A stretch of DNA of 64,000 nt from contig NW_024881619.1 in assembly GCF_019059575.1 (NCBI RefSeq), forward strand, positions 310,001 through 374,000, given 5' to 3'. The position numbers were made by a program, and so were the translations under genes. Positions within the stretch are counted from its first letter, which is position 1; every line of letters begins with the position of its first letter. Under the pieces are notes generated by a model, which did not search any database, was not told where the DNA came from, and worked only from the letters and a program-made list of their open reading frames with translations. This stretch comes from Amphibalanus amphitrite (Eukaryota > Arthropoda > Thecostraca > Balanomorpha > Balanidae). Shown one piece after another: positions 2,723 through 64,000 of this stretch.

Positions 2723-2946
2723 GAATGCGTCCATTTTCATGTCGACCTCGGGCCGCACCCGATTGTTGAGTGTGATGATGCGGTTCAAGATGACGGCGTC
2801 CGGCGGCGCCTGCATGTTGACGTCGCCATCGAACGCCTGAGAGTGCTCGATCGAGCAGGGGTTCTTCCACTGAGAGCGTCTCGCCGTCGGTGCCGACATG
2901 GCCGGTGAGAGTGACGATAAAAACAGGAACAGAAATACTGACGGGT
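2723..2946 (-). CDS. Putative internal coding exon, possibly near the N-terminus of a secreted protein
   Basis: On the minus strand a pyrimidine-containing acceptor ending TTTTGCAG (AG at 2948-2947) precedes an open stretch of 224 nt. That stretch ends at a consensus donor GTAAGT beginning at 2722. The exon would enter in a phase that leaves two bases, encode 74 codons, and leave in phase 0. Its start is hydrophobic (PSVFLFLFLSSLSPAMSAPT), like the core and cleavage region of a signal peptide. It is followed by a mature-looking segment with a single cysteine and ordinary amino-acid use (PDAVILNRIITLNNR, then RPEVDMKMDAF just before the donor). This differs from the low-complexity frames around it. 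I do not recognise the family, and neither the upstream exon with the start codon nor a following exon was found. It could be a chance open frame between good splice sites. Confidence 0.35.
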
Positions 2947-8900: not shown

Positions 8901-9863
8901 TTCATCCACCAGTTGATAGGTAGGTTCGGTCCGGTCAACTACACAATGAAATATAACAGTGCATATAAGGAAATATATTTTCGTATTTCATGGACTCTGA
9001 CGTCAGGCAATGAAAGGGACCTATCGATATTGAATTTTGCTAAGCTTAATTGATGTTCGTACTTCGTTGTATAGAAAAACAAAACTTCAAAATAAAATTA
9101 ACAGTAAACCATGCATCCGCTATTTACAGCTTCTAGTACGTGGTGTATGCAAAATTGTCCGGGAACTCGGGTTCGTTTTTCATTTTCAATAAAAAACACA
9201 ATTCTAGCGAACAGTGTTTTTAACTATTGAACACAAACCTTCGGTTAGTATGTGCATTTTATGTGTGCATATTTTACGTGCAAAACGGTGATAGTTTGGA
9301 AATTACCAATCATAGTTAACTCAAAATATAGGAACCTTACAGCCGCTCGGAATACCAGAAACTCTTATACCTACGACAATAAAAATTAATTAGAACCTCA
9401 AACCTTTCGGTCCGTGCTCGACTGATACAATTCGACGATGTACTCACGTTTGAATAAATACTGGAATGCGTGGAGGCAGGGTGTGCTGTGTCGTACCGTC
9501 GCCGCCGACACGGGCACGGTCCGCCTCCGCGAGCCGTCGACGGCGTGCACATGGGCCGTCTGTGTGACGGTGTGTGCACAGTCGAGCGGCCCGTGGCCGC
9601 AGTCACATGGCACCCTGCACTGGCACGCGCTGCACTCGGAGCTGTCACCCCGCGACGCCGACGTCAACTCCATCACGGCTCGTCCTCTGATAGCGCTCTC
9701 TCTCGCTCTCTGTGCTATCTCTCTCGCTCTCGCCGTATGCTCTACCGACCAGCCGCGGCCGCCTATGTCGCCTCACCGACTCCTGCCGTGCTACTAATGC
9801 ACCTCATAGCGTACACACGTATAATATCGTTCATCCAAAGCGCCTCGCTCACCAGCCGTCTCC
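2947..9863. other. GC-rich intergenic or intronic region, no gene recognised
   Basis: Nearly 7 kb of CpG-rich sequence alternating with short AT-rich islands (about 3400-3660 and 8820-9420). It contains a (GCC)n run at 7349-7376 and CT-rich microsatellite sequence at about 9690-9740. Open frames are short, overlap on both strands and have no recognisable domains. It could be upstream regulatory DNA or a large first intron of a gene outside the window. Confidence 0.4.
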
Positions 9864-9918
9864 ATTGGCTGAGCGCAGTGCGGTGGGCGGGGCCGTGACG
9901 TCAGACAAGGTGACGTCA
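9864..9918. promoter_or_regulatory. CpG promoter-like cluster: CCAAT box, GC box and two CREs
   Basis: Within 55 bp there is an inverted CCAAT box (ATTGG, 9864-9868), a GC box (GGGCGGGGCC, 9885-9894) and two perfect palindromic cAMP-response elements TGACGTCA at 9896-9903 and 9911-9918. The CREs are 15 bp apart. These are known binding sites for NF-Y, Sp/KLF and CREB/ATF factors, and the combination is typical of CpG-island promoters. No transcript start or adjacent coding exon was identified, so direction is unknown. Confidence 0.45.
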
Positions 9919-10482
9919 CCTCGCCGGCTCGAAATCCCGGCGGCTGCCGACCGCGTCATACGTTGCATGGCAGAGCGGCGCGCGGCCCGGCGGTGCAACC
10001 ACGTGCAACGGGCGGCCGACGACCAGCACCGACGGCCAGCGACAGCCGCCCCCTCGGCAAACCTTCCAACGGGAACTGGGGCGTGTCACGCTGACAGGGG
10101 GAGGGGACAAGGCCGTCTTCTCACCGTTCGGGGTCGCCTGAATCACCGGAACCTACTTCAGACCCGATAACGCATTCCGATGACGTAGCGCGTATCCGGG
10201 AGTGCCGGTGTCGACGCAATACGCACCGCTATCGTCGTCTGGCCGGCGTGGGAGTAATCAGAGCGAGCCCGGCTGCTCGGCCAGCTCCGCGCAGGACTGA
10301 CTGAAGCTATAATTGTCGCCGCATTTTATTGCTCGCTGAGACGGCTTATCTGGATTTATCGGTTCGTAATCTGGCGGTGACGACCTGCTGAATTGGGAGT
10401 GGGCCGGCGATCGGACATCACCGGTCCATGGGAGCAGCGGCGGGGCACAGGTGCAGTCGGCGGGCAGAGCTGGGCAGCTATC

Positions 10483-10505
10483 GGCGGCGGGGGCGGCGGA
10501 GGCGG
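10483..10505 (+). repeat. GGC-rich microsatellite
   Basis: A short imperfect run of GGC/GGA triplets. It produces poly-glycine or poly-proline frames that overlap on both strands. No function is suggested. Confidence 0.6.
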
Positions 10506-10699
10506 CAGGTACAAAGTGCTGTCGTCGCCCTGCGCGATGCCGGTGCTGCCGGACAGCTGCTGGGCTCCCGTCGGCCCACTGAGTGCCTTATTGTCGTCAG
10601 CGCCGGACGCGCCGCGCCGGCCGATTGGACAGTGGCGAGACACCGAGATTAGATAAACTGTTCTCGTTAACGGTGAGCGAGAATCGTTGCGCGACCTGC

Positions 10700-12480
10700 A
10701 TCCGGAAACAGTTTGCGAGGCTGCGCATATGGGAGGTTCCGATTCTCAGAGGCAAAAACTAAAAAGGCAAATTTTCTGCGCCCATATCAGTTCAGCATCA
10801 TAATGTTCATCGACTTTCCAACCTTTGATCGTAAAGGTTTAGTTTTACCTGTTATTATGGCATCATCGTTATTCGTTACAGCCACTGGGAAATTTGTGTT
10901 GCAAAATAACACAGTGATAACTTCAATCCCACTAGCAACGCCATCTTACAACGAAAGGTTTTAGCAATCGAGTCCTCGGGGAATTGTCACAATCTTGTGA
11001 CAATTGACTCCGTTCTTCTTCGCGCAAAGCAGTTTTAGCTGATAAATGGAGTGACAGAACACAGAGTTTGGAGGCTTCTGTTTAAAGCTGTTATTTTTGG
11101 AGTCTTCCTTCGCAATGGTTCACGTTAAAAAATATATACCAAGAAAATAAAAAATATTAAGATAAAAATATAAATAAATAATAAATATAAATAATAAAAT
11201 ACTTTCCTCCTTTAATAGAAAGAAAAATGTTTGAGCAGCTTGTTATGATCCTTAATTTTGATGAGTTCGTTATGTATTCAAGCCAATATTTGCAGAAATT
11301 AACCTACCTATCATACTGAGTTCTGTATAGCACTGCCACTGAAAACTGCACCGGGCCGAGTTCAGAGCTAACAGCTACTAAACACTACCATTCATTCGAG
11401 CTATTTCGGTCAGCGAGGGCCCGATTTAGAAACGGAAGTCTGACGTATATCTGACATTCATGGTCATGGTGCAGTGCGGCGAGCCAGTTGAGCGAACCAT
11501 GGCCTGTGGCCTTGAGTGACACTCTTCCAACTACCATACAGAATTCAGCAGACGACTCGACTGAAACTGCAGCCAGCAGCGAGAGGAAGGCATGAATTTA
11601 TCGAAACATGCACGCCCCTGTCTAGAAAGGAACTTTTGTGAAGGCCTGCGACTCAATTTTGTAAATGATGCAGGAAAGCATGGTTTGACGACTCTCAGCG
11701 CACTAGCGAGTCCCATCGGTTACATAATTAGCTCGTCCGCCTATTGTGCTGCCATTTTTAGAAAGTTTGTTTGATGATTCGATGAGTCGTTCGGGGACCA
11801 CGTTACAGAGAGCACCATTCTGATATCGCAACGGGAGCATGTCTGTCCACGCCTGTTTCGACGGGCTCGTTTTGTCAAACACCGTACTTTTTTGAAACGT
11901 TGACGGCAAGTTAAAAAATTAATTGCCATCAATAAATAGCAAAAAGGCTATCAAAGACTACCTTCATTTTGCGGGGTAGAAGCGTGGTGGATTGTGATGC
12001 TAAAATGCAGGGCCAAATCACAATGTGTTGCTGTTTAGGGTCGAGTGTTCATATGTATGTCATGAGTCTGCAGGGAGTCATGAGGCATGAATTTTGAAGC
12101 GGTCTAAAACTGGTAAAGTGGCTCAGTGAATGTGAAGTTAAATAGCTTGTGTTGGAAAAGAATAGCACCAATGCAAGATTTTAAGTGCGTCATGATGATT
12201 ACCAATGCATTCCTTTGGGCGTAGGTTCTCCTCCCTTACCTTCCAATAACTGCGATTTTCTCTGTCTATGACAGCATCCATCCATGTTATCATCTTCCAA
12301 TTTATCAACAGCAACCATCGTATATCCCTCCTCTTCTCGCCTCATCCTTCTGTCTGCTGTGCACATTCTCTCCTTTCCACTTCGCTTTTGACCGCCATCA
12401 GCCCGCGCCATAGCCTAAGTAGTCCTCCACCATCGCCGAAACGTTCGGGAGCGATACCGATCATTCCAGTCTCCCTTTCT
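10700..12480. other. AT-rich gene-free region with an A/T low-complexity tract
   Basis: Composition changes sharply from the GC-rich left side. A low-complexity tract of A and T (many ATAAATA units) lies at about 11125-11220. No coding exon or repeat family was recognised. A GC-rich block with a GCGC run follows at about 12488-12500. Confidence 0.4.
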
Positions 12481-14692
12481 CCTGAGCGCGCGCGCGCGCC
12501 GGCGTGCGTTCTCTGCTGTGATTGGTCGCCGGTGGGGACGGAGGGACGTCATGGACCGATCAGAGGCCACCGTTTGGACCCGGTCCTCCGACGGAGACCG
12601 CCCGCTTCCGGTCCTCGGTTCAGAGCGGAGCGGAGGGCAGGAGGGGCGCCACGGGCTTTAGAACACTGGACAGACGAGGTGGGCAAGTAGTTTGAAATTG
12701 CGAATATGCTAAATTTTAGCGGTTTGCACAGCGTTAGACTCAAAGGAACGTCAGAAAGAGGGATTAACATTCAATCACTTCATCAGCGCGATTAGTTCTG
12801 GAAAGTATTGTTGAGGTGTCTGCGTATCACCCACCCAGAAACACCCTTTCTGAATGTGGCAGTACCCATATGCACCAAGGTGTCTAGTTTATAAGACGGT
12901 TGCATCATGTAATCATGCAGCTAACACAGGCTCCTCGCCTGTATTTTACCATCCACCTGTTCAACAAGCGCCTCAAACAATGAGTTTCTTGCGGCTTGGA
13001 CCACCCGCGGACGTTTGGCAGCGGTGTTTCTCCATTGTTACCACGAGGGGCCTCGCTCACCACCGGCGTTCCCCGCTCCCTGCCCGGCCAGACTTTTCTC
13101 AACAGAACACAGCCGAGCCCCGTCAGCGTCCAAATTTGGATTTATTCGCTACCAGTGACACACATTGGTCTCGTAACGCTCGGAGCACGTACAGGAAAGG
13201 ACATTTCAGGAAGACTTGGCAAGGTCGTCAGCCCGTTGCTTACATGTACTAAAACCAGCAAAAGGGCGCGTTTGGCAAAAATTGGCACATGCGCTATCGC
13301 ACGCCGTTCGCCTGATTTCCAGGTTCAGTGCGGGCTGGGTGCTATGATTCACACGAACAACCGGTCAAGTGCTGTTCCGAAACAACGGCGACCTGGTACG
13401 CGGCAAAATCCTCGCCGCGTGCCTCGAAAAAGTAAAACTTGGGATTAGTTCAGCCCGCGAATCTGGCGCTATAATGTGCATGACGTGAATGGATATATAG
13501 GATGTACGCGTGGCTTGATATATTGCAGAAGATGGCGAGCAGATGTTTGGTATTCAATCCGAAATTTCTGTGACGGTGAGTTTAATCTGACCGGACTGCG
13601 AGGGTTGTTCGGTAAGCTCTATGAATTAATGTTCCGGACGCGGCTAGCTCAATTCAGATTAGGCAGGTGTTCCCGATAGTTGAACTATGCAGGTGTCCGA
13701 TCAAAACATCACAATGTATTTCATACACACACCATGAACTTGTCAATGCAGTGGTGCGTGGCAATGTTGAATATGCATGCGTCGTTCCTTTGCTTGTGTA
13801 TCGTCCTCTGCCGTTAAGCATATACTGACACAAGCGGAGATGGGCATTGACGTGCTAAATGTGCATTGCTTATAATTAAATGTTTCTGCAACACTGACCT
13901 CTAATTATTTTCCCTGGTGGTGAAACAGCAATTCTGAGCTCTAACATTTGGGATCCTTTCTGGAATGGGGAATGTGCGGCAAGCACTAAAACCAGTTGTG
14001 CTCATTGCTCGAGTCTTTGGCATCTATACGCTAACGTACGCTAACGTACAGTCCCACGACAAGGCATGATAAGTAGAAATATTGCGGCGCAGTAGGCCTC
14101 TATGTGCGCAGAAGTTGGCCCGTGACCGACTCCGTGAATGGCGAGCTCAGGAAACGGAACTTCATACACAGAAGTACAGTTTTGTACACAGAAATGTAGT
14201 TTTATACTTATTTGGGAAATGTTTAACGGTTAGGTAATATTTCTCTAGCTTCATTCATAGCGGGACTGTCCCATGGACCATTTCCGAGAATAAATAAACA
14301 CTCAGCAGAACAGGCCTGGAGGCGGCGACCAAGACGCTGTCGGAGTTCCTGGCAACGACCGGGGGACATCTGAAAATCAGCTGTCCGCCTGAGGTTTCGG
14401 CCTATAATCAGTTTCGATCCTGAACCATTTGGTTCCAATCCCTAACAATTTGGATCTGATCCTGAGCCATCGGGGCGCGTTCCGAATCAATCCGAGCTGG
14501 GCCAAAAATATCCGGAGCGGACTCCGTTCCATGTCACTCGCGGAGAGTAAGTCGTGATAAAACATAGGAGCTATAACCGAAGGTATGTTGTCAATAGTTA
14601 AAACACTATTCTTTAGAATTGTGTTTTTCTAGTGAAAAACAAATCTGAGTTCCCTGACAATTTGGCAAAAGCTGCCTGAGATTGGCGGGAAC

Positions 14693-24811: not shown

Positions 24812-25168
24812 AGTACTGACAGGGCTGGTAAAAAGCGCCGATTCGCTGATAATATCGGAGCCAGAACAATAGCTGTACAAGCTATTTAGGGAGCCAGAAA
24901 TAAGCGTTTCAACACAAGTATGCATGTGCAGGATAACTGTTAAGTTTTGTTTCACATTTTCATTTTATTTCTACGACAAACCTTTAAATACAAGATGCCT
25001 GAGCACGAATATTAAATTAGTAGCAGCATTCAATTTCCCAATAAGGTCTTATGCGCAATGTTTGTCTAAAAAGTACAAAGCTGGTAGCCTATTCAGAATA
25101 GCTGTAAATGCTTACCGCGAACAGCGTCAGCATTCATCAGTCGAAGAGCCATCAGTCGATTTCCAGCT

Positions 25169-26181
25169 TTAAAGGGACTATCCCACCTTCTAAAATGTTG
25201 TTAAAACCAGTTAAATTGTGCCCGACTTTATAGATTGGATGACCAGGAACACGGTTCTGGCATTTATTTTTCATTAAACATCTTAGGCTTCCCATATTCC
25301 AAACACAAACTTTCATATATGTGACGTCACAGCCCAAAATTACCTCCTTCCCCAGGCCACATTACTGTCATAAAGCTGATTCGTTTTACTCTGTAGGCAC
25401 CACAACAAAGTTCAGACCATGTTTTAAGCGATTTTTCAACGAACAAACCCATTTAAATCAGAATGACTAAACGAGGTGACGTCACACTAACGGTCGCTCC
25501 ATGTTGAAGATAGGGCCTTGTACAAGGCCCATTTTCAAATGAAGGGAACGAATTTCTTCAACACCAAGAGGCCGCGGGGGTTGCAACCTAGATAGATAGT
25601 GGTTTCTGAACCTCGCCGCAAACTTGGCTATCTCAACTCAAACCCCATGTTAAAGGAAAAGGGCCACCTTTAACATGGGGATTGAAACTGAGATAGCCAT
25701 CTTGTAGCCCGTGTCCGAAAACCTATCTGTAAACCTCCTTACGGCCGATTTCGGCCTCCATTCGTAGTTATCGGCAATTTTAAAAGAAAATACGCCAGGA
25801 ATGCGTCCTTATCCCAGGAATGCGTTCTTATCCGACAATACAGCCACCCGCGGCGAGGCTTTGGTTTTTTACCAATCAGCTCCAACCAGCTCAGCTTTAA
25901 CCAATCAGCTTATCTGACACAATCCGACGAGTCTGTCTTCTGAACGCTGATTGGCTTGAGTGTGACGTCATCGCTATGCCATCATACAGTAGGTGCCGTA
26001 GAGAGTATCAACATAGTACCAATATGTTACTTAGTTTTAAATACTTTTTCGCGAATTGTGCACTTCTGGCACCAGTTTTAAAAAGAAAATGAAAAATAAT
26101 AATGTCAAAATGAAAAACAACGATATCTTCATATTTCACGAAGGTGGCCCTTTTCCTTTAAAGGTGGGATAGTCCCTTTAA
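25169..26181 (+). mobile_element. TTAA-duplicating DNA element (Kolobok- or piggyBac-like), non-autonomous
   Basis: Inverted ends AGGGACTATCCCACCTT (25173 onward, and in reverse complement up to 26177) are flanked on both sides by TTAA (25169-25172 and 26178-26181). TTAA duplication is shared by piggyBac and Kolobok elements. An end beginning AGGGA rather than CCC argues more for a Kolobok-like group, which is inference. It holds no long frame and lies inside the hAT-like element, so it is the younger of the two. Confidence 0.75.
25626..25698. repeat. Imperfect inverted repeat (hairpin) inside the TTAA element
   Basis: GGCTATCTCA...CCCCATGTTAAAGG is followed after about ten bases by its near reverse complement CCTTTAACATGGGG...TGAGATAGCC. 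The arms are about 31 bp with a few mismatches. The loop sequence AAAAGGGCCA recurs reversed at the right end of the element (about 26143-26160), so this may be a nested or duplicated end. Confidence 0.7.
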
Positions 26182-27263
26182 CACTACGGAGAATAGGGCT
26201 CCGTAACTTTTATCAGTTGATGAGGACCTAGTGTTGAGGGAACGGGGAGCCACAGAGCCTTCTACCATTGGCGGTTCACTGTATTACCGACTAGTTTAGA
26301 ACACAAATAATGATATTCAAGTGGCCTTTTCATTTTTATCAATGCAGGGCATGCAGGGTTGCGGCTGGTTGCGGCACGGGCAAACTGTACATTTCATGGT
26401 ATGTTGGTTGTTGTTTGTTTGGATTTGAAGTTGCTCCTTTTCTGTATAGTACCTACATCTCATAGCAATATCATAGACCACCTACCTCAATATTTTAAGC
26501 TGGTCAAGCTGTGGAGCTAGACATAAATATGGCGCTTGTTTTTATTTTGAAGATGCATACGGATACCTAACTCAAGTGGCTAAAGATACTCATTTATTTG
26601 CCAACCAACCCAGTATGGTTAGCATATTTGTTACAAAATCAAAATAAATTTTGAAGATTAAGATATGTTCCTCTTCTGCATGTTTTTCTTTTTGGTACGC
26701 CATACTCAAAATATGCTTATATAAGCAATCATGATTTATATTTCAGGCATTTTGTAACTAAAATTAATATTAGACTTTCACTTATAGTGCCTTTGTGTTT
26801 CAGTTCTCAGCGTAGGACATCATCAATCATGTGTATCTCAGATGATGCAGACAATGACCAGCCTGCGGAAGATCTATGCTAGTGGGTGAGATGATGAAAT
26901 TTCCTCTGTTGGTGAGTCAGTATTATATTTTTTTTTTTGTCAACAACATTCATTGCCTTACATGCATTTGTGCCTTACATTTCTGTCACCAACCAGCTTG
27001 AGCTTAAACAAAAGTAGAAGAAATTATATACCTACCTACATTCTTTTGCTGTGTTTGACACCAGGCGATGTCCTAAAATCAGGATACATCAGTGAGCTAT
27101 AAGTAAAACTAAAATAGTTACTGATGAGGTTTAAGGTGTTCCTGAAAAAGGACGTTGTTCACCGCACTTTCAAGCATTCTGTTACGCGTGTTAGGAGCCA
27201 CTTTTCATGGCCGAAAATTTGGTCAGAGCCACCAAAACCATTTTTACCAGCCCTGAGTACTGA

Positions 27264-42924: not shown

Positions 42925-43059
42925 AGCATGAACATGGGTGTAACTTTGTATACTTTCGAGGTCCCATGTGGGACCCCAATGCGAACATTTGGGACCCCAA
43001 TTGTCATTTTGGGACCCCAATAGTGGAGGCCCCCGAGACGCACCAGCTACTTTGCAAAC

Positions 43060-44545
43060 GGAGGTCCGATGTTCATATAAAAGGTTCTCTGTTTAAATAG
43101 GAGGCCCCTTGGACAAATCGGAGGCCCTGTTGGACAAATAGGAGGCCCCCTGAACAAGTAGGAGGCCCCCTGGAGAAATAGGAGGCTCTCTGGACAAGCA
43201 GGAGGCCTCCTGGACAAATAGGAGGCCCTAGACAAATAAGAGGCCCCTAGACAAATAGTAGGCCCCATGGACAAATAGGAGGCCCTCTGTACAAAAAAAG
43301 AAGCCCCCTGAACAAATAGGAGGCCCCATGGACAAGTAGGAGGCCCTCTGTACAAATAGGAGGCCCCCTGCAAAAATAGGAGGCCCCCTGGACAAATAGG
43401 AGGTCCTAGACCTAGACAAACAGGAGGCCCCTTTCACAAAAGGAGGCCCCCTGGACAAATAGGAGGCCCCATGGACAAGTAGGAGGCCCTCTGTATAAAT
43501 AGGAGGCCCCTTGCAAAAATAGGAGGCCCCCTGGACCAATAGAAGGTCCTAGACCTAGACAAACAGGAGGCCCCTTTCACAAAAGGAGGCCCTCTGGACA
43601 AATAGGAGGCCCCTTTCACAAAAGGAGGCCCCCTGGACAATTGGGAGGCCCTCTGAACAAGAAGGAGGCCCCCTGGATAAAGAGGAGGCCCCCTAAAATA
43701 GGAGCCCTCTGGATAAATAGGAGGCCGCTTGGAAAAAAAGAGGCTACTTTAACCAATAGGAGGTCCCCTGGACAAAGAGGAGGCCCCCTGAACACGTAGG
43801 AGGCACGCTGGACAAATAGGAGGCCTCTTGGGCAAAGAGGCCCCCTAGAAAAATAACAGGTCCCTTGGACAAATAGGAGGCCCCCTGGACAAATAGGGGA
43901 CCTCTTGAACAAATAGGAAGCTCCATGGACAAGTAGGAGCTAGAGGCCCTCTGTACGAATAGGAGGCCCCCTGGACAAATACAAGGCTCCCTTAACAAAA
44001 AGGAGTCCCTTAAAAAAGGAGGCCCCGGGACAAGTAGGAGACCCTTGGACAAATAGGAGGCCCCTGCACAAATATGAGACCCCTAGTCGAATAAAAGACC
44101 CCTGGATAAATAGGAGGCCCCTTGACAAATAGGAGGCCCCTGAACACGTAGGAGGCCCCTAGATAAAGAGGAAGGTCCCTAGATAAAGAGGAAGCCCCCT
44201 GGAAAATAGAAGCCCCCTGGATAAATATGGGACCTTCTGGAGAAACAGGAGGCCTCCTGGACAAATAGGAGGCCCCATAGACGAATAGGAGGCCGCTTGG
44301 ACAAATAGGAGGCGCCGATAACCAATAGGAGGCCCCCTAGACAAACAGGAGGCCCTCTGTAACAGTAGGAGGCTCTCTGTACGTACAAGAGACCGACGCT
44401 CGACCTGTAGAAGCTTAGCTGTATGTACACTAGGAGGCTCTCTGTGCAAGTAGTCGAAGTAGGAGGCTCTCTGTACTGTACCTACAATTACAAATAAGAG
44501 GCCCCCTGGGCAACTTAGATGCAACACAAATCGGAGGTCACCTAT
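43060..44545 (+). repeat. 20-bp minisatellite, unit AAATAGGAGGCCCCCTGGAC
   Basis: About 1.5 kb of imperfect units of mostly 20 bp, with length variants. Because 20 is not a multiple of three and the unit has no stop on the minus strand, long minus-strand frames appear in every phase with repeated GLLFVQGASYLSRGPP phrases. They are artefacts. Higher-order copies exist: the block around 43400-43460 is repeated at 43530-43590. Confidence 0.9.
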
Positions 44546-44606
44546 AAAAAAGCGGGACTCTGTTGGAATACCTGATTTAATAAATCATTTTTCTGATATT
44601 CAAATT

Positions 44607-46172
44607 ACTTAGATATAGGTAATCCTCGTCCGCACATGGGGGGGGGTCAGTGGTTGCCACACCCAACCCCCCCGCCCTAGGTAGTTTTTTTTCTGCTCTG
44701 CACTAAACATTTTGATTGCTAGAAGTCGGATGTTTCGTATAGCTGCTGCTCTATCCTTTTTTAGCGTCCACTGAAAATTTCAAGTTTCTGTGGTTTTTGG
44801 TTTCGGAGATATGACCTTATTCTTCAGGTAATGTCATAGCCCAAATGACAAATACCCAATATCTTGCGTTGGCGTTGGGTCTTGTGAGCTTTTGACACCT
44901 TGATTTCGGCCTTTTTTGTCAGTCTTACCTCCCACCTATCATGGAACATGTTGTTCAATGATGTAGAGATGCCAGGGTCAGGGTCAAGGTCAACCTAGGT
45001 CGTCTAAAAATATTGCGTTTTAGGCAAGCTGAATTTACTTTCGTGAAGTTTCTTTGACTGTATTTTTGTTAAAAGCTTCTCAGTTCGTGATCTCATGTAA
45101 TATGGACACATTCACAATCGGTGCACACATCAGTATACACACAGACACACAGACATACAAACACATGTCATTGACCTTGAGCTAATTTGACCTGAAATGA
45201 CCACAGCCAGCAAAAACCTAGTCGGATAGTGTGACAAAGAGGTTCTAGCTGGCTTGGCACCACAATACGGCAGCGTCATCGGTATATGATGAGCAGCGCA
45301 CGTGATATTCCAACGGGCAACGGTGACCCCAAACAGCAACATTCTTTAGTTTGACCTGACCTGGAAGGTCAATGACTGACCTGATGAGGTAAAATTGGTA
45401 TCATTGGATCCGTCTCTTCCCAAAGAATCTGTTGCTCTTGACCGCAAGGCTTAAAATCTTGTAAGAAAAAATTGTGGTGATGTCGAATAAGATACCTACA
45501 CAAGCAGCGGGCCAACCCATCATATACCGATGACGCTGCCGTATTAGTGCCAAGCCAGCTAGAACAGCTCTTTGTCACACTATCCGACTAATTTGCTGGC
45601 TGTGGTCATTTCACGTCAAGTTAGGTCAAGGTCAATGATATGTGTTTGTATGTCTGTGTATGCCTGTTATGTACTGATGTGTGCACAGATCGGTTTGTGT
45701 GTCCCTATTACACTTGATCATGAACTGAGAAGCTTTTACTAAACATACAGTCAAAGAAATTTCACGAAAAGTAAATTCAGCTTGCCTAAAGCGCAATAAT
45801 TTTAGATGACCTAGGTTGACCTTGACCCTAACCCTGACATCTGTACATCGCAGAACAACATGTTCAATGATAGGTGGGAGGTAAGACTGGCAAAAAAAGC
45901 CGAAATCAGCGTGTCAAAAGCTCACAAGGCCCATAGCCATCGCAAGATATTGGGTATTCGTCATTTAGGACATGACATGACCTGAAGAACAAGGTCATAC
46001 TCGTATCTTCAAACCCAAAAGCCACAGAAACTTGAAATTCTCAATGGACGCTGAGAAAAGATAGAAAAGCAGCTATACAAAAAAATCAGGTTTCTAGCTT
46101 TAAAAATGTTAAGTGTAGAACAGAAAAACTAACTTGGGGGTGGCGACCCTCCCCCCAGGTGCGGGCGAAGGT
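44607..46172. repeat. Large palindromic (foldback) repeat with ~650-bp arms
   Basis: The left arm 44607-45291 and the right arm 45518-46172 are inverted copies. Matching blocks include CAATATCTTGCG/CGCAAGATATTG, GTGAGCTTTTGACA/TGTCAAAAGCTCAC, CTAGCTGGCTTGGCAC and CAGCGTCATCGGTATATGATG. The spacer is about 226 bp (45292-45517). It contains GACCTGACCTGGAAGGTCAA and later phrases homologous to 60285-60345, tying it to the AGGTCA-rich repeats. The outer ends (CCTCGTCCGCAC and CCTTCGCCCGCAC) flank G-rich tracts. Confidence 0.8.
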
Positions 46173-46665
46173 TAACCCTCACACTTTCTGGGGTCGGCTT
46201 ACGGCTAGATTCCTTGCGCAATGCTGTGCCGTTAATTTTTTTTCTATAATAAAGGCATTGTGTTTTATTGTCAAAAGTGAAAAAGCCAGAAATTTTCGTC
46301 GATTTCGGATGCTGCGGGGGATATTTACATACAATGTCACCCTGCTGGCCTGAATCCACCAGTAGGGTCAGGTGACCTACCATTTCTTTATCAATATTCA
46401 AAAAAAAAATCATGGCATCAGAGCTGTGACGAAAAATAAGTGGCCTAAATCCGATGAGAAAACTGGATTTGGGGGTACCCAGGTTTGGCTTCTGAGCCTC
46501 TGGTCCCCCAATGAAAATTTCTTAGAGGAGGCCCTGGCGTGGTTCGTAAATTACCGCTTTCGCAATTGGAGGCCCCTAATTGCTTGGAGGCCCCCACTAA
46601 ATGGAGGCCCCATTGGACGTTTGGGACCCCAATGGTGATGTCAAAGTTTCACCCATGAGCATGAA

Positions 46666-47195
46666 TTTTTTATTGGATGGTGATCTGACGTAAAACGGGC
46701 CATTAAAATCGCACGGCCGTCGACATAAAACAGATAACAGCACACAAAAATTCACTAAAAAGTGCCTCTATTACACCGCAGCGAGTCCAGCCCCGGTTTT
46801 TGCGCAGTGTGCGTCGCACCCGGCGATCCACACATGCCCCCGGGGCCTTCTACGCAGCTAACCTGCAAGTGAACCAACCCATCGCCACCACAGCTCCCAC
46901 CAGGGCAACCCACCTCCCTCAGTCCCATCCTCACCTTTAATTTCCTCTCGTCCTCTTTCTTCCTCGTCTGGAACCGCTACTGTAGCGTCGACTGCGTGCG
47001 GGAAACCTTCGCCACGCCGTCGCCGAACACAACTGACCCAATCGCTGGCGACCGACGGCAACCGACCGGCCACCGGTGCCGCGCCGTGTCGGTGACGTCA
47101 TCAGTGACGATGAGTGACGTCATTGGGGACGTCACTCACCTGGCTGGTGTGCCGCTACACAGGTGGGTATAGGAGTAGTTATTTACTAACCGTAA
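46666..47195. other. Short unique region
   Basis: This lies between two repeat blocks. It has normal composition, a CT-rich stretch around 46910-46970 and a CRE cluster at its right end. No coding exon was recognised. Confidence 0.35.
47093..47135. promoter_or_regulatory. Cluster of three CRE-type sites
   Basis: TGACGTCA occurs at 47093-47100 and 47115-47122, and GACGTCAC at 47128-47135, within GC-rich sequence. CREB/ATF-family factors bind such sites. No transcription start was identified beside them. Confidence 0.35.
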
Positions 47196-48062
47196 ACGGC
47201 CCGGTAGATTGGGCCAATACGCGGCCATGCGCGGTATGGTGGAATAGGCGATTAATTTCGCCGATTTTCAGGTCGAAGATTGACAGCTTACAAGATGCCG
47301 ACGCATAACTCGGGAACCAATTAGAGCTACAGCACCGCGGAAAAGCGCATTTGATAGCCATATTAGCATGCTCTCTGGTTACTTCTCTTAGATTTGACCT
47401 AACGTCAACGGCTTTGTCTGCAAGGGGCAAAAACTACCAAAATAGACGATTTTTTCGGGAACAGTTTTTCTGCAATAACTTTTGACTCATGCCTTGCACG
47501 AGCTTTCTTTTACCGACATCGTGTTCCTCTCGTCAAGACGCATCAAATTAACTACAATTTGACCTTGAGGGTCAACTTGAAAATTCGACCTCAGGTGAAG
47601 GTCATGATCTGACCGGAAATTGTCATGTTGTATATATCAGTCGATCTGCATCGTCGAGCCAAACACAACTAAGGCATTTTCATCGCTCTAGCATGCCTCT
47701 TTCAAAAGTTATTAGCGAAAAACTGTTAGATACCATTCGTGAACTGAGATGACCTCGGGCATAAACAAGGGTCACGGGTGCTATTTTCCTGTTCAGAGTG
47801 TCAAAGTCACGTAGAGTGTTTTATAGTGTTTAGAATAACTTCCGTCCAAAAGAGGTGGTTTTGAATTTTCTCCCATTGACTTATAACAGAGGTCACAAAA
47901 TTGAGCTGACCTTAGGTCACCGATATGAAAATTCTGATGCATAAATTTTGTACATGCTGTTGCCCTTATCAATCGCTGAAAGTTTCAAAGCGATTGGTCA
48001 CTCGGTGTAGCTACGGCATACATACATTGAAACATTTTATGAAGTGAGGTCACTTGAAGTGA
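47196..48062 (+). repeat. AGGTCA-rich interspersed repeat, left part
   Basis: A diverged homologue of 24100-24811, sharing ATAACTCGG, GAGCTACAGC, GTCAACGG, GACGCAT/GCGTC, and CCTCAGGTGAAGGTCA. It is interrupted at 48063-48070 by an 8-bp-duplicating element and resumes at 50467. TGACCT half-sites recur (for example TTGACCTTGAGGGTCAA near 47561). Confidence 0.65.
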
Positions 48063-48539
48063 CCTGGTGACAGGCGCGCACACAGGATTTTTGAATGGGG
48101 GGGGCACGACCTTCGAACTGGGCCCCCCATGCCGAAGGCCCCCCCCCCCAAAAAAACGGCCCACGGGGCTATATTTCGGTTGGTTTGAAGCTTGAGCAAT
48201 TGGTTTGTCAATGCATGGTAGGTAAAACAATTATTTCGGTACCAGCTTAATTTTCAAAACATATATATTTTTACGCTAGCATGTTTTTTAGTATGTTTTT
48301 TTTTCGCGGATCCCGGACCCGCGAGTCACCCGGGGGCCCGGGGTCAGCTCAGGCAAGGATGTATCCTGGACCTTTCGATGAGGGAGGCACGGTGGGTCCA
48401 GTCTCACTGGCAGACGGGCTCTTTAAAACGGTCTTTGCATGAGAAAATGTGGAAAATCGGCAAGCAAAAGTATCATTTATGCCCGAGGAGTGTGCCTAAT
48501 GTACACTAATGCCTAATTTACATGGTATTTTACGAGCGA

Positions 48540-49035
48540 GCGAAGCGAGCGAGCTCCTCAGAGTCACCGGTGTGTGGCGCGCTCAGAGGTGCCAGTGAAA
48601 GGCCGTCAGATGCGCTGGTGTTGGGTCCTCACATGCGCCGTTGCGGGGTCTTAGGGCTTAGGTGGGGCCATCATTGGCATGTGTGTGGCCCTGCAAAATG
48701 GCCTGCAAGTGGAAAGTGGCCCGTCATAGGCTGGCAAGGACACTCGGAGGCTGGTAAGAGGCCCTCAGAGTCACTGGTACGTGGCCCTCAGAGGCGTCGG
48801 TGTGGGGACTCTCAGAGCCGCCGATGTAGGCCCTTAAGATGCGCTGGTGGGGGTCCCTTGGAGGTGGGGCGAGGGGCCTCGCAGTTACCGTTGTGGGTGC
48901 CTTTAGAAACACTGGTGTGGACCGTGTGTCTATCACAGACGGATGTGGAGCCATAGCAGCCAATCCCTCGTTGGCCGTTATTAGGGCCCTGAGCGGCCGG
49001 CGAGGTCTCTCAGAAACCGGCATTGGGCCTTTATG
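48540..49035 (+). repeat. Degenerate ~30-bp minisatellite
   Basis: Units with GGCCCTCAGAGTCACTGG-like phrases recur with many substitutions (about 48550, 48600, 48760, 48790, 48840 and later). They form the left part of the element's interior and leave open frames in both directions. Confidence 0.6.
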
Positions 49036-49214
49036 AAGATAATTGTGGCTACATAGGAGCCAATAACGTGCCCCCACAAGCCCTGTGGTGTCCTTCCGAG
49101 TTGAAGTGCGGCCAGCGCGAACCCTCTGCTACCAACTGGCGCCGCAGGGCCCCTCGGTTTCGAGAGGAACCCTAAACCCGAGAACGGGCACGTACCCCCT
49201 CGCTCCCTTGCTAT

Positions 49215-49445
49215 GTCACTGAATCCAAGTGATTAGGGACCCTTTAGGTAATCAGGGGCGTTTCAGATGACCAGGGGTTTTCAATTGATCAGGGGCCCAC
49301 CAGGTAACCATGGGCCCCTCTGGTAACCAGGCGCCCCTTAAGTAACCAGGGACCCCATCAATAACCAGGGCCCCTCAGTAAACGGGGGCCATTCAGGTAA
49401 GTGTAGGAGTCCCGCAGATAACCAGGGCCGGCGAGGTTTCTCAGG
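49215..49445 (+). repeat. ~20-bp minisatellite, unit AGGTAACCAGGGGCCCCTC
   Basis: About ten degenerate units built on GTAACCAGGGGCCC, changing into a different unit at about 49445. Non-coding. Confidence 0.7.
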
Positions 49446-49469
49446 TCCGTTTTTTGACAAGGCTCTTAT

Positions 49470-50330
49470 TGACTCAGGTGCGAGCCCTTTGCCATCAGCA
49501 GAGGGCCCTTTCAAGCCTTTTGAGGGCCGTTTAACGTCTCTTGAGTTCCCATTGAGGCCTTCTAAGGGCCCTTTGAGCAGTCGAGGGGCCTTTGAGGCCT
49601 TTTGAGGGCCTCTTGACGTCAGCTGAGGACCGTTGGACGCCAGCTGAGGATCGTGTTTTTGGGCCTTCTGATGGCCATTAGACGCCAATGGATGACCCTC
49701 TGACACCAACTGGGGCCCTCTGACACCAGCTAAGGGCACTTTAAGTTTGACACTAGCTCAGGGCCCTCTGGCATTAGCTGGGGGGCCCTCTGACGCTAGC
49801 TCAAGGCACTTTGACGCTCTTTAAGGCCTTTTGAGGGCCCTTGAGGTCTTCTAAGGGCCCCTTGAGGCTTTCTAAGGGCCCCTTGAGGCTTTGAGGGCCG
49901 CTTGACGCCAGCTCAGGACCGTTTGAGACCTTCTGATGGCCATTTGGCACCAGCTGGGGGCCCTCTGTCAACAGCAAAGGACCCTTTAGAGCCTTCGGAG
50001 AGCCGTTTGACGCAAGGGCATGGCCCTCTGACGCCAGCTCAGGGACCTTTGACACCCTTTAAGGCCTTCTGACGTCCGTTTGACGTTAGCTGAGGGCCCT
50101 TTGAGGCTATCTGAGGGCCCTTTAAGGCCATCTGAGAGTCCTTTGAGGTCATCTGAGGGCTCCTTAAGGTCATCTGAGGGCCCTTTGACACCATCTAAGG
50201 GCCTTTTGACACCAGATGAGGGCCCTATGACGCTAACTGAGGGCCCTTCGAGGCCATCTGAGGGCCTTTTGAGACCATCTGAGGGCCCTTTAAGGCCATT
50301 TGAGGGCCCTTTGTACACGGTCTTCGGTGG
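49470..50330 (+). repeat. 21-bp minisatellite, unit TGAGGGCCCTTTGAGGCCATC
   Basis: About 40 units, most regular from about 50090 to 50310. Each carries a palindromic AGGGCCCT core. Because the period is 21, the minus strand stays open as seven-residue repeats of the type GPSDGLK. Nothing else suggests translation. Confidence 0.85.
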
Positions 50331-50466
50331 TCTAAGGATTAGTTAGAGGCCCATTTGAGGCGGCCTTCGGCCGCCTCAAATGGGCCCCTTCCTTCGAGTT
50401 GGGCCTCCCAACTCGAATGGGGGGGCACGGGCCCGTGTGCCCCCCCCCCCCTTGTGTGCGCCCTTG

Positions 50467-50640
50467 CCTGGTGACCTGATCTTGAATGACCTTGGTGTGA
50501 AATTTTTACAACACGTGTAGAATTGATGGATGATGGAGCGCCGCCGTTTTTTAGATATCCGTGAAAAACCGCAGGAAAAACCGCAGGTGTTCAAACACCC
50601 CCCCCCCTCCCCCAGCAGGGCGCCAACACACTTTGACGAT
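50467..50640 (+). repeat. AGGTCA-rich repeat, right part, ending in a poly-C tract
   Basis: This resumes the repeat interrupted at 48063. CTGGTGACCTGAT, AATGACCTTGGTGTGAAATTT and a terminal C-rich tract correspond to 27365-27500 of the other copy. Confidence 0.6.
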
Positions 50641-51185
50641 TTGCCCCAGTAGTCAAAATTCCTTGGCCGAGGCCCTGACTCTAATACATAACCCTATTTG
50701 CACCTGCATTTATATCAATATGCTGAGTATTTAGGAGCCTAATAATGCTGATAAACACAGCTGAAATGACTTGAGACCCGTGACAGTATGAAACATAACG
50801 AAGATCGTTCTAAGACATTAGGTATAGGTACACTTTCCGGTTAGGCAAGTACGTCTACCTATATGTGTCGGTCATATTCAGTGCCTATTATAGCCTATAT
50901 GTATACATTTTATCGCAACAATACCTATACCCACTAAGCGAGGAAGGCATGGGCCGGGCCCTCGTTTGACATTTTGGTGTCATCTGTTTCGCCAGATTCG
51001 CCAGATTGTGTGTGTCGCCGGGCGCGTCATGGAATAGATTCGTCATGATCGTTATAAAATAGATATTTAGATACAGTCACAAATTTACAGTAGATAAATG
51101 GGTTACCATGGACCGGTCGCGATGGCCCACACTCCCAGCTCAAAGTCTCCAACAGCCTTACGATCTTTAGGCTCATTCGCCAACA
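50641..51185. other. Short unique region
   Basis: AT-leaning sequence between two element clusters with no gene or repeat recognised. Confidence 0.4.
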
Positions 51186-53171
51186 GCTTCATCCACTGGC
51201 GGATCCAGGCTTGCGTTTTGGGGGGGGCCAACTCATGCGGAGCCAAACCTAGGGTACCCCCAAATCCTGTTTTCTCATCGGATTTAGGCCACTTATTTTT
51301 CGTCACAGCTCTGACACTATTAATTTTTTTTAACTAAAAAGAAAAATATATAAATGGTAGTCCACCCGACCCATGCCTTTATATTACTTTGTGAACACTT
51401 ACCATTGCTTTTGTCGACCAGTTAACCCGCTTCGAGTCAGTTCTTGGGTCCCTTTGCGGGCCGGGAGGTGGTAAAACACCCCCAGTCTAACTCGGCTCCT
51501 GGGCCACGCACTGATTGAACTATGTTTCATTATCGTTTGGGGAGGGGCAAACGGGCCACTTTAGGCCTCTGGGAAAGGGGCATGGCCCTAAATGCCCCCT
51601 CCCTGGATCCGCCAGTGAAAGACACCATTGGAGCTGCAGTTGGGTACCTCAGACGTCAGGGTACGCCCTCAGATGTATAGGACTTGCGTGGAGACCTCTT
51701 ATGCTGTAGTGGACTGAAAGGACCCAAAGGAGCCCGTCTAGGGCTCCCGGAGAATGGAGATAGACGTGGGCCCTCAGGAGCCTGCCAGAGCCCCCAATGA
51801 GGGATAAGTGAGGGATACCAAGTGCCTGCAATTGCATATTGCATAAGCCATAACGCCTTTACAAATCAATATATTATGTATCAGTGGCAGATACAAGGGG
51901 GGCCACATGGGTCATGACCCCCCTTGGTGCCCGGGGGCACCACCGGCCAAGCAGGGGCACCACCGGCCAAGCAGGGGCACCACCGGCCTAGCAGGAGCAC
52001 CACCAGCCCGCCAGGGGTACCACAGGCCTAGCAAGGGCACCACGGGCCTGTGACGGGTCCCACAGGCTTGTCAGGGACACCCCAGGTCTGTCAGGGACAC
52101 CAGAGACCTGCCAGGGGCACCACCGGCCTCGCAGGGGCACCATGGGCCTGTTAGGGGCACCAGAGGCCTAGCAGGGGTACCACAGGCCTTACAGGGGCAC
52201 CACCGGCCTTGCAGGGGCACCAGAGGCCTAGCAGGGGCACCACAGTCCTGTCAGGGCCCAGGGGCACCAGGGGCCTAGCAGGGGCACCACAGGCCTGCCA
52301 GGGGCACCACCGGTGTAGCCTTTACAAATCAATATATTATGTATCAGTGGCAGGTCCAAGGGGGGCCACATGGGTCATGACCCCCCTTGGTGCCCGGGTG
52401 GTGCCTGTCAGGGGCACCACCGGCCTAGCAGGGGCACCACCAGCCCGCCAGGGGCACCACAGGCCTAGCAAGGGCACCACGGGCCTGTGAGGGGCCCACA
52501 GGCTTGTCAGGGGCACCCCAGGTCTGTCAGGGACACCAGAGACCTGCCAGGGGCACCACCGGCCTCGCAGGGGCACCATGGTCCTGTCAGGGGCCCTGCC
52601 GGCCTCGCAGGCATCACGGCATCACGCAGGGGCACCTTGGGCCTGTCGGGGACATCACGGGCCTGTTGGGGGCGCTTTAGGCTTGTCAGGGGCACCGCAG
52701 TCCTGTCAGGTCCCAGGGGCATCAGCAGCCTAGCAGGGGCACCCTAGGCCCGCCAGAGCCACCACAGGCCTGCCAGGGTCCAGGGGCACCACAGGCCTAG
52801 CAAGGGCACCATGGACCTGTCAGGGGCACCTCAGGCTCCCGTGCCCCCCCCCCCTGGATCGGCCAGTGATGCCACACCACGCGAAACACCGCCAACTACC
52901 AGCTGCCGCGCCATAAACACGTGCCAACAACAGTCTTTTTTTAAGGTCGACTCCTCTCGCGCAACTTTTGACTGACCCTCACTGCTACCATATTGCTTCC
53001 ATATTATGCTGTGGAAAGCTTTACTTCACCAAGTGGCTAAAAACCTCCTTCAAGGTATATTTTCTTAGCATTTTTTCGGACGTTTTGGGGGGGCCAAACC
53101 GGCCACTTTAGGCCTTTGGGGGGGCCATGGCCCCCGTGGCCCCCCCCCCTGGATCCGCCAGTGGCTTCATC
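51186..53171 (+). mobile_element. Non-autonomous hAT-like element with internal minisatellite, target duplication GCTTCATC
   Basis: Outer ends CACTGGCGGATCCAGG (51194-51209) and its exact reverse complement (53148-53163) are flanked by an exact 8-bp duplication GCTTCATC at 51186-51193 and 53164-53171. Further right-end copies of the same motif lie inside at about 51602-51617 and 52853-52868. Altered left-end copies lie at 51882 and 52345, so several family members are nested or internally duplicated. The left 130 bp matches the reverse complement of 63000-63127 and parts of 46420-46500 and 60660-60725, showing an active family. No transposase frame was seen. Confidence 0.85.
51855..52850 (+). 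repeat. 20-bp minisatellite (unit CAGGGGCACCACCGGCCTAG) with a 463-bp duplication
   Basis: Imperfect 20-bp units fill about 51930-52315 and 52395-52850. The 80-bp segment before each block (starting CCTTTACAAATCAATATATT at about 51856 and 52319) is nearly identical, showing that one block and its leader were duplicated in tandem. Confidence 0.9.
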
Positions 53172-62709: not shown

Positions 62710-63150
62710 AAGGTCAACCAATGACCAAGGACCTTAAAATCGGGTATCATAGGCTTCGTCTCGTCACTCACGGGCAACACGCTTGTTTTTTTCCGCGAGC
62801 TCTAGCTTGATCAGGGGCCGAACGGCAGGGAGTCCAACCGACACCTTCCAGCCCGCGAAGGCTGCGCCAAGCGCCGGCCCGGAGCGGTCTAACTGGTCGA
62901 CAAAAGCAATTTGAAGTGTTTTCAAAGTAATATAAGGCTCGGGTTGGGTGGGCTGCCATTTCTTTTTTCTTTTCTTTTTAGTTAAAAAAAATTATCGTTT
63001 CAGGGCTGTGACGAAAAAATAAGTGGCCTAAATCCGATGAGAAAACAGGATTTGGGGGTACCCTAGGTTTGGTTACTTGCAGGAGTTGGCCCCCCCCCCC
63101 CAAAACGCAAGTCTGGATCCGCCAGTGAGGGGGTCCACCCCCCCCCCCTT

Positions 63151-63660
63151 ATACGTTCACGGCTGGAAAACACCAATACGGGCGAGGGTTGAACCTCCGA
63201 ATGGGATTCTGAACAAGGCTGTTCATTCTTGGTTCATTCAAAACAAGATCGGAGGCAGTGGCGTATCTAGGATTTCTCTCAGGGGGGATCCGCAGTCAAA
63301 AGGGCCCTTGACTGACTGGGTTTTAAAGGGCCCTTAAGTGGCAAAAGGGCCCTTGTAGCTTGAGTTGAAAGGGCGTTCAACCCGCGTCCCGTGGGGGGGG
63401 GACGAAACGGCCCCCTGTCCTCTTCCGTAGCTATCTCCTAAATGACTGCAGATATCCCAACCAAACTTTCAGGACGTCTACGGGCATCCATTTTACACAT
63501 TATGACCAATTTTTTTTTTTTCCAGAGGCTATGATAGGTTGGCCGCAAATGACGTCATGTTCTGCCATTTTCGACCCAAAAAAGGTTTCGCAGGAAGAGC
63601 TGTCAGCCCTACAGAGCTGTAGATACATAAAAATGTTCCGAGATAAAAGGTGTACAATTA
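63151..63660. other. Further DNA-element end and GGGCCC repeats, no gene
   Basis: CAGTGGCGTATCTAGG at about 63257 resembles the ends of the CACTGGCGGATCC family. It is followed by three or four AAAGGGCCCTT-containing units at about 63295-63385, then G-rich sequence. The other end was not identified. Confidence 0.45.
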
Positions 63661-63663
63661 ACA

Positions 63664-63750
63664 GGCCTAGGTCAAATCTGAGCACAGTTTAGCCCCGCCT
63701 TGGGTTGGGCCCAGGCTGGAGCGTTGACCCTAGGTCAAATCTGAGCACAA
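63664..63750 (+). repeat. Direct repeat CCTAGGTCAAATCTGAGCAC
   Basis: The 20-bp phrase occurs at about 63665 and again at about 63729, about 64 bp apart. It contains an AGGTCA half-site. The spacing could reflect a short duplication or the flanks of a small insertion. Confidence 0.7.
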
Positions 63751-63793
63751 ATTACAGAAAGAATGTCAAAAGAGTTTTGTTTGTTTTGTTGGG

Positions 63794-63853
63794 CTATCAT
63801 CCTTCCGGCCCTTTCGGTCTGACCAGACCATTTCAGGGCCGGAAGGATGATAG
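63794..63853. repeat. Perfect 19-bp inverted repeat (hairpin)
   Basis: CTATCATCCTTCCGGCCCT (63794-63812) is followed by its exact reverse complement at 63835-63853. The 22-base loop contains a second small palindrome, GGTCTGACCAGACC. It may be a snapback mini-element; no flanking duplication was found. Confidence 0.85.
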
Positions 63854-64000
63854 GAATTGAGGGAGACATTGGTCTGGGCGGGCACCTTGGTGAGTCACCG
63901 GGGCTGAGCCTGTCCAACAGGACAGGCCGACCAGCCCCCCAAGTGCTCACTGCACCCGGTTACGAGTGTGCTTCCTTAGGAGCTGCAGTGCGCTCCAATG

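Follow-up and report, generated by a model that had tools for sequence, protein, structure and literature searches.

Three transposons in the barnacle Amphibalanus amphitrite (contig NW_024881619.1, positions 310,001 to 374,000, a stretch of 64,000 nucleotides referred to here as the window) are best read as members of the hAT superfamily. They are likely to be non-autonomous members of hAT lineages that carry at the left end a kilobase-scale array of 20/21-bp subterminal repeats, which are putative transposase sites. The array is an inherited feature of the family that moves with it, and is not made anew in each copy; it looks like an enlarged set of transposase landing sites and not a stray minisatellite. 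The features in the window are as follows.

42925-42932, no strand: left target duplication of element 1, AGCATGAA, with an exact right copy at 46658-46665.
42933-46657, plus strand: element 1, a 3725-bp non-autonomous element with inverted ends CATGGGTGTAACTTTG and CAAAGTTTCACCCATG.
43095-44359, plus strand: array of element 1, 63.8 copies of the 20-bp unit AAATAGGAGGCCCCCTGGAC at period 20 (Tandem Repeats Finder).
44733-46082, no strand: long imperfect palindrome in element 1, arms 81-100% complementary, recurring in other copies.
46568-46635, plus strand: right-end cluster of element 1, three GGAGGCCCC and one TTTGGGACCCCAATGG on the strand of the left array, read directly.
48063-48070, no strand: left target duplication of element 2, CCTGGTGA, with an exact right copy at 50467-50474.
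48071-50466, minus strand: element 2, a 2396-bp non-autonomous hAT, from its end match to the C894 hAT.
49251-50313, minus strand: main array of element 2, 21-bp unit with an AGGGCCC core (Tandem Repeats Finder, core spacing).
51186-51193, no strand: left target duplication of element 3, GCTTCATC, with an exact right copy at 53164-53171.
51194-53163, plus strand: element 3, a 1970-bp composite non-autonomous element with inverted ends CACTGGCGGATCCAGG and CCTGGATCCGCCAGTG.
51194-51617, plus strand: left-hand segment of element 3, with an inverted end on either side and no duplication of its own.
51882-52867, plus strand: inner part of element 3, starting CAGTGGCAGATACAAGG and ending CCTGGATCGGCCAGTG, containing the arrays.
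51934-52836, plus strand: arrays of element 3 at 51934-52310 and 52403-52836, 20-bp unit GGGGCACCACAGGCCTGGCA (Tandem Repeats Finder, core spacing).
63256-64000, minus strand: C4-type hAT, right end, containing three AAAGGGCCC cores and 81% identical over 123 bp to the C4 right end.

Across the whole window, pairs of 8-bp duplications 150-9000 bp apart were sought that enclose CA...TG ends agreeing at 11 or more of 14 bases. Four elements were returned, 42933-46657, 48071-50466, 51194-53163 and 24820-27255, the last of which (AGTACTGA) is without GGCC cores; the coordinates and exact 8-bp duplications given for the three array elements in the initial annotation are thus confirmed. The inverted ends agree at 13/14 bases in element 1, 12/14 in element 2 and 14/14 in element 3, and the exact duplications rule out a Helitron, for which no target duplication is expected. 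All 17 complete copies of element 1 (window copy included) are flanked by identical 8-bp duplications, as are the four further complete copies of element 2 and three of four further copies of element 3, the fourth having one mismatch. A duplication and inverted-end finder run on random window spans fired at 41 of 295, with none in a backwards control; in a rerun the 46 of 312 spans that gave a match traced to two pairs, the element 24820-27255 and 6962-12534, the latter with 9/12 ends that may be chance. A finder match alone is therefore weak, and the assignment of L021 and L025, two more array elements encountered in flanking sequence, also rests on their arrays and 11/12 ends.

Tandem Repeats Finder assigns element 2 a period of 21, its best block holding 12.3 copies, and element 3 a period of 20 (18.5 and 21.1 copies). 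Core-to-core spacings, counted with one mismatch tolerated here and in the relatives below, peak at 20 bp in element 1 (23 of 51 intervals), 21 bp in element 2 (15 of 41) and 20 bp in element 3 (24 of 32), a distance of about two helical turns. Inverted ends and GC-rich 20/21-bp arrays, as first described, are therefore present in all three elements; the GGCCCC/GGGCCC core does not extend to element 3, whose core is GGGGCACC with GGCC further on. Stop-to-stop frames of at least 90 aa overlap the element region 25 times, but many of them, among them the longest at 148 aa, are translated repeat sequence, and tblastn with two hAT transposases gives no match in the window. The elements contain no transposase gene, consistent with their original description as non-coding.

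Arrays of this type also occur in gene-carrying hATs. One (C894) is 8,958 bp long with an exact 8-bp duplication, GTGGCGGT, and an uninterrupted 799-aa frame; another (C4) is 10,210 bp long, also with an exact 8-bp duplication, TTAAGGTA, and has a 659-aa frame and a 148-aa piece with one stop between them. Both proteins contain the Pfam domains DUF4371 and Dimer_Tnp_hAT, and since they are only 35% identical over 638 aa the array design spans a deep split. In each the array lies beside the left end, extends for about 1-1.7 kb and is situated 5' of the gene, about 5 kb from the frame; C894 has 36 cores with a modal spacing of 20 (19 of 35), C4 has 65 with a modal spacing of 21 (26 of 64), and the right ends hold 3-4 further copies of the core. 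The design is thus not tied to non-autonomous elements.

The units of element 1 and C894, element 2 and C4, element 3 and L021, and C894 and C4 match one another better than any of 300 shuffles in each comparison, and the element 3 unit has no match beyond shuffles to those of element 1, C894 or C4. The claim that the three elements have different repeat units therefore holds only in part, and the repeated independent origin proposed with it is not supported: arrays are inherited within families, the unit of element 1 and that of element 2 each match a hAT unit, and the two hAT units are themselves similar, which rejects a separate origin for elements 1 and 2. A single design, its presence within non-autonomous elements and the dispersal of minisatellites by transposition are all upheld. 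Element 1 is linked to the gene-carrying hATs by its array unit only, and element 3 only through its inner start, which resembles the C4 left end. Element 2 is linked by both end and unit; its left end is the C894 right end in 20 of 21 bases, so it is reversed relative to C894, and its main array adjoins the end corresponding to the C894 left end. Because its end is like that of C894 and its unit like that of C4, there is no strict correspondence between ends and units.

Membership in the P, MULE/Foldback or another superfamily with 8-bp duplications is very improbable, given that array-bearing relatives encode hAT proteins and that the element 2 end is near-identical to that of one of them. 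P elements start with CATG, as does element 1. Tandem repeats are found in the ends of Foldback-like elements in the excerpts of one report (PMC4079207). The arrays here are one-sided, however, and are not inverted copies at both ends. Core strings in the stretches counted lie on one strand in element 1 (30:0), element 3 (23:0) and C894 (21:0); those of element 2 (16:15) and C4 (35:34) are near-palindromes, so that strand is uninformative there. One-stranded cores in element 1, element 3 and C894, together with arrays at one end in C894 and C4, rule out a Foldback with tandem-repeat inverted ends on both sides.

The association of array and ends is best documented for element 1. The array is entered from all 23 left ends in the sequence examined, all 75 end-paired copies are at least 2.8 kb long, and 93 of the 100 array 30-mer matches listed lie behind a same-strand left end, with six of the other seven 2.6-4.0 kb from a right end. 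Neither array-less ends nor arrays mostly outside such ends, the two patterns initially named as contrary to the proposal, is thus seen for this family; the comparison is less stringent for element 2 (8 copies fetched) and for element 3 (4 copies fetched with a query that itself contained the array). One locus considered as a gene-bearing copy of element 2 (L031) is a copy broken by other sequence and was rejected. A survey of arrays of at least 100 bp with 18-23-bp periods in 252,713 bases, comprising the window and 20 loci chosen for element 1, places all of them in duplication-bounded elements or element 1 copies, except L016:293-397 and L018:32-260, and this argues against random genomic minisatellites. 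The former exception sits at the edge of its stretch.

It is also conceivable, if unlikely, that the array is a tolerated minisatellite, in which replication slippage or faulty post-excision gap repair lengthens any short GC-rich repeat close to the end of a hAT, and a functionless array is then dispersed by transposition. Consistent with this, uninterrupted element 1 arrays vary in size by copy (about 50-67 units), arrays contain higher-order duplications (with periods of, for example, 83 and 216 bp, and 99 and 47 bp), and conservation is near-uniform along the element 1 unit: per-column means in 16 other copies are 0.954 for core and 0.946 for spacer, so that the core is hardly better kept and no core-specific selection was found by this measure. 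This account fits poorly with an array beside one end in two such divergent hATs whose opposite ends repeat the core, with a 20/21-bp period common to elements 1-3, C894 and C4, and with the lack of any array-less element 1 copy among the left ends and paired copies above. Less likely still is a regulatory role, with the repeats bound by a host zinc-finger protein or serving the transposase gene as promoter, enhancer or silencer; the 5' position in both C894 and C4 favors it, but the distance from the gene frame, the retention of the array by gene-less elements and the recurrence of the core behind the gene do not.

We therefore favor the interpretation that these are probably greatly expanded, one-sided subterminal repeats, with putative transposase sites two helical turns apart. 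The GC core would be the recognition site of the transposase N-terminal zinc finger, and numerous sites along one DNA face would allow a multimeric transposase to find and load onto the left end easily, the right end then being captured in cis, as in the proposal for Hermes. Arrays would lengthen by local tandem duplication and be kept because copies that have them are mobilised, and gene-less copies would retain ends and array. A stronger and doubtful version is that the hAT left end is a kilobase-long loading strip, in which 36-65 phased zinc-finger sites on a single face of the DNA nucleate a long transposase filament or cluster, transposition depends on array length, and hundreds of gene-less array copies are transposase sinks, regulating or parasitising the elements that carry the gene.

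Several observations count against transposase sites as the explanation. A Hermes-like octamer has eight fingers, far fewer than the 36-65 sites; the core is hardly better conserved than the spacer, and the element 3 unit has no match in element 1, C894 or C4. A 42%-identical relative whose right end is similar (C154, L067) has no GGCC cluster at that end, and only two of 23 hAT 3' flanks examined have one next to an end that could be recognised; in L038 and L068 there are at least three cores but no such end. No exact array 30-mer lies within 24 kb of 11 of 72 element 1 left ends, and a search for a gene-bearing element that has the ends of element 1 gave none among the left ends and hAT places listed (the first 100 of 240 left ends, 80 hAT places), the closest pair of these being 34.5 kb apart.

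The maize Ac/Ds subterminal motif is AAACGG, and differs from the repeats described here in forming no phased kilobase array. Ac/Ds is similarly a hAT with subterminal repeats, and at least 200 bp of each end is needed, according to excerpts of two reports (PMC10368747, PMC3260210). A close parallel is Hermes of Musca domestica, a hAT with short repeats near its ends and asymmetric use of left and right: in the excerpted account (PMC10368747) several BED fingers bind left-end subterminal repeats and none the right end, and the many sites are thought to help the multimer find the left end. Its BED finger and its 17 and 14 AAG(T/C) motifs, which are most closely packed at the tips, contrast with the 36-65 regular 20/21-bp units over 1-1.7 kb, with GGCC cores and DUF4371-type proteins, in C894 and C4. 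Tandem repeats in the long ends of Galileo hold extra transposase sites whose multiplicity is proposed to give specificity, although Galileo belongs to the P superfamily and has long repeats inverted at both ends, with three mapped sites in one family (PMC3688188, in part); the elements here are hATs with short ends and a one-sided array. Tetris of Drosophila virilis is likewise non-autonomous, and its internal tandem repeats gave rise to longer arrays (PMC4079207), but these are 220-bp repeats in both inverted ends, the duplications are 8-10 bp, no autonomous partner was found, and Mutator has been suggested. Our literature search, with subscription journals mostly outside its reach, found no description of hATs bearing arrays of this kind.

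These elements bear on two questions of mechanism, the number of subterminal sites that a hAT transposase uses and the reason for its unequal ends. They offer a natural dose series (the uninterrupted element 1 arrays of regular units) beside gene-carrying relatives, one with an uninterrupted transposase frame. The repeats of DNA-transposon ends are also one concrete source of dispersed 20-21-bp minisatellites.

Element 3 seems to contain, as its inner part, an array element embedded in it whose own duplication is not visible; a free-standing relative of this part is L021:4627-5780. No free copy of the 424-bp left segment with its own duplications was found in the sequence examined, and 2107 first-look solo candidates (40 scored) are not counted as solo elements. 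A fourth partial example, initially placed near 63257, is present with its start corrected to 63256 and is the right end of an array-type hAT; its left end was not found, and the element runs past the window, with an array at about 66084-66507.

The window contains three gene-less elements with arrays of 20/21-bp GC-rich tandem units that carry short GGCC-type cores, and both the coordinates assigned to them in the initial annotation and the 8-bp duplication flanking each proved to be exact. The inverted ends of elements 1, 2 and 3 match at 13, 12 and 14 of 14 bases, the array periods reported by TRF are 20, 21 and 20, and the modal core spacings are 20, 21 and 20 bp with a sharp peak (23/51, 15/41 and 24/32 intervals respectively). 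A further element, at 24820-27255, is hAT-like and array-less; its ends agree at 14/14 positions, it lacks a GGCC core and any frame reaching 100 aa, and arrays are thus not automatic in such duplication-bounded elements. These are listed together with two gene-carrying hAT elements found elsewhere in the genome and named after their contigs.

Duplication-bounded elements in the window and gene-carrying hAT elements elsewhere in the genome
Window 42933-46657: element 1, gene-less, with array
Window 48071-50466: element 2, gene-less, with array
Window 51194-53163: element 3, gene-less, with array
Window 24820-27255: element without GGCC core, 2436 bp; duplication AGTACTGA; ends CAGGGCTGGTAAAA on both sides
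C894:195712-204669: C894 hAT, 8,958 bp; duplication GTGGCGGT; 799-aa frame
C4:612104-622313, minus strand: C4 hAT, 10,210 bp; duplication TTAAGGTA; 659-aa frame plus 148-aa piece, separated by a stop

Arrays phased at roughly two helical turns are a standing, one-sided part of these hATs, in gene-carrying and gene-less members alike. In the 807.5 Mb genome (2644 contigs) the element 1 left-end 18-mer has 240 exact matches (backwards control, 0), and a right-end 25-mer has 259 with at most two mismatches. Twenty stretches were fetched, 13 in listing order and seven picked from the match lists, so that the sample is partly chosen for good match; with the window they contain 23 left ends, 17 of which have a right end in the same stretch. 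All 17 of these copies have identical 8-bp flanks, representing only 16 different sequences since two of the copies share one insertion site within another element-1 copy. The array is entered from the left end in 23/23 cases; in L015 (one of the 23) and L018 it is cut short by an insertion that has retrotransposon-like frames. Identity between copies continues through the array (~95% for the closest, 70–87% for others), and the array is therefore inherited.

Among the matches listed, the first 100 left ends yield 75 left-right pairs of 2.8–14.5 kb, the shortest (2,812 bp) being longer than element 1 minus its array (~2.5 kb); the other 25 have no partner within 20 kb among the right-end matches listed. 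For an exact 30-mer taken from the array there are 342 matches in the genome (145+197). The first 100 of them divide into 85 no more than 1.8 kb behind an element 1 left end, eight farther behind one (1.8–8.2 kb; one at 21.9 kb), six near a right end only (2.6–4.0 kb) and one that is ambiguous. The exact 30-mer is present behind 61 of the 72 same-contig left ends among the matches listed and absent behind 11. The initial annotation had named two patterns that would speak against its proposal, copies of the ends without arrays genome-wide and arrays mostly outside such ends; the 23 ends, the 75 pairs and the 30-mer positions display neither for element 1.

Eight copies of element 2 were fetched, and the four complete ones all have exact 8-bp duplications and 94–98% identity through the array (one in two blocks around an insertion). 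Copies L032 and L036 reach far into the array and end at the edge of the fetched stretch, L033 ends in the early part of the array, and L031 ends before reaching it. The four element-3 copies fetched have 22–33 cores each, with exact duplications in three and a one-base difference in the fourth; having been found with an array-containing query, they are uninformative on array-less copies. Element 3 is a composite of three parts: an end-to-end segment of 424 bp, an inner part that holds the array, and a piece of 296 bp on the right. The inner part has a free-standing relative with a matching unit (L021:4627-5780, duplication TCTGCCGC).

A search for the hAT-dimer region (PF05699) identified at least 149 places in the genome. 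Among 23 hAT 3' flanks (~1 kb downstream), 20 hand-picked from these places for varied scores and frame lengths and three from a protein search, two have at least three GGCC cores ~15–25 bp apart adjoining a recognised end; L038 has three cores and L068 an array-like stretch adjoining a damaged 67%-identical relative, neither with a recognised end. The complete C894 and C4 elements were obtained by extending upstream from the two flanks that have cores adjoining a recognised end. Their left-end arrays have cores at ~20–920 bp and 35–1735 bp with modal spacings of 20 and 21 respectively, and their right ends have 3–4 cores each, those of C894 on the same strand as its left array. The two proteins share 35% identity, and each contains DUF4371 and a hAT dimer region, with a CxxC...H...H stretch ahead of DUF4371 (by eye) that we take to resemble a TTF-type finger. 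The C4 stop lies inside this stretch; with a stop in its gene, this C4 copy may be inactive. The C894 protein has a second full-length copy on C1223 (100% identity as listed), and its matches to solved structures are only Hermes entries, or same-match entries named transposase, all weak (E 0.08–0.11).

The element 1 unit AAATAGGAGGCCCCCTGGAC closely matches that of C894, and the element 2 unit matches that of C4; these matches, and those of C894 with C4 and of element 3 with L021, each beat 300/300 shuffles. The element 3 unit is borderline against that of element 2 (30/300 shuffles) and not similar beyond shuffles to those of element 1, C894 and C4. The element 2 left end CAGGCGCGCACACAGGATTTT differs at one of 21 bases from the reverse-complemented C894 right end; element 2 is thus reversed, with its array on the side corresponding to the C894 left end. 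A fourth, partial example noted near 63257 is a real element end, at 63256, now identified as a right end of C4 type (81% across 123 bp); an array follows at ~66084-66507, beyond the window, and a search for the left end found none.

On the model of Hermes, each array core is probably a transposase site. The Hermes octamer uses BED fingers to read several subterminal repeats at its left end but no repeat at its right, and the authors propose that this enables it to locate the left end within the genome (PMC10368747); in Galileo, extra binding sites can reside in tandem repeats of long ends (PMC3688188). Higher-order periods in the arrays suggest that they grow through local tandem duplication. 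That the arrays are without function we consider unlikely, and keep in view because core is hardly better conserved than spacer in element 1 units (means 0.954 and 0.946), so that these copies show no evidence of core-directed selection, because L067, a 42%-identical relative seen at its right end only, has a similar right end without the core cluster, and because no gene-bearing partner carrying the ends of element 1 itself turned up among the matches listed, where the nearest hAT place to a left end is 34.5 kb away (100 of 240 left ends). Both hATs with subterminal repeats and mobile elements with internal repeats are already known; no report of a hAT lineage with a phased, one-sided kilobase array, gene-carrying members included, was found in the literature searched.

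Several other arrangements were observed. In L011 and L027, two separate places in the genome, different element-1 copies each lie within another element-1 copy, at roughly one and the same position in it and with an identical duplication TGTCAGAG; either this position is a target hot spot or the nest was duplicated. An element at L025:1582-3397 is nested in an element-1 array (duplication GGAAGCCC; ends agreeing 11/12) and contains a 23-bp GC-rich array. The middle of element 1 (44733-46082) is a long imperfect palindrome with arms 81–100% complementary, also present in other copies. The C894 element has a second tandem array, made of 13.6 copies of a 247-bp unit with 96% match; it lies at ~2295-5679 of the 8,958 bp, after the 20-bp array and ahead of the transposase gene. 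A partial diverged copy (84%) of the element 3 left segment lies at 62842-63127 on the minus strand, directly before the C4-type right end. A segment of ~80–130 bp is common to the element 1 right side (46401-46480), the element 3 left side (51252-51331) and, by eye, the sequence 3' of a further hAT gene (L054, ~630-700), hinting that end pieces are exchanged among hAT families.
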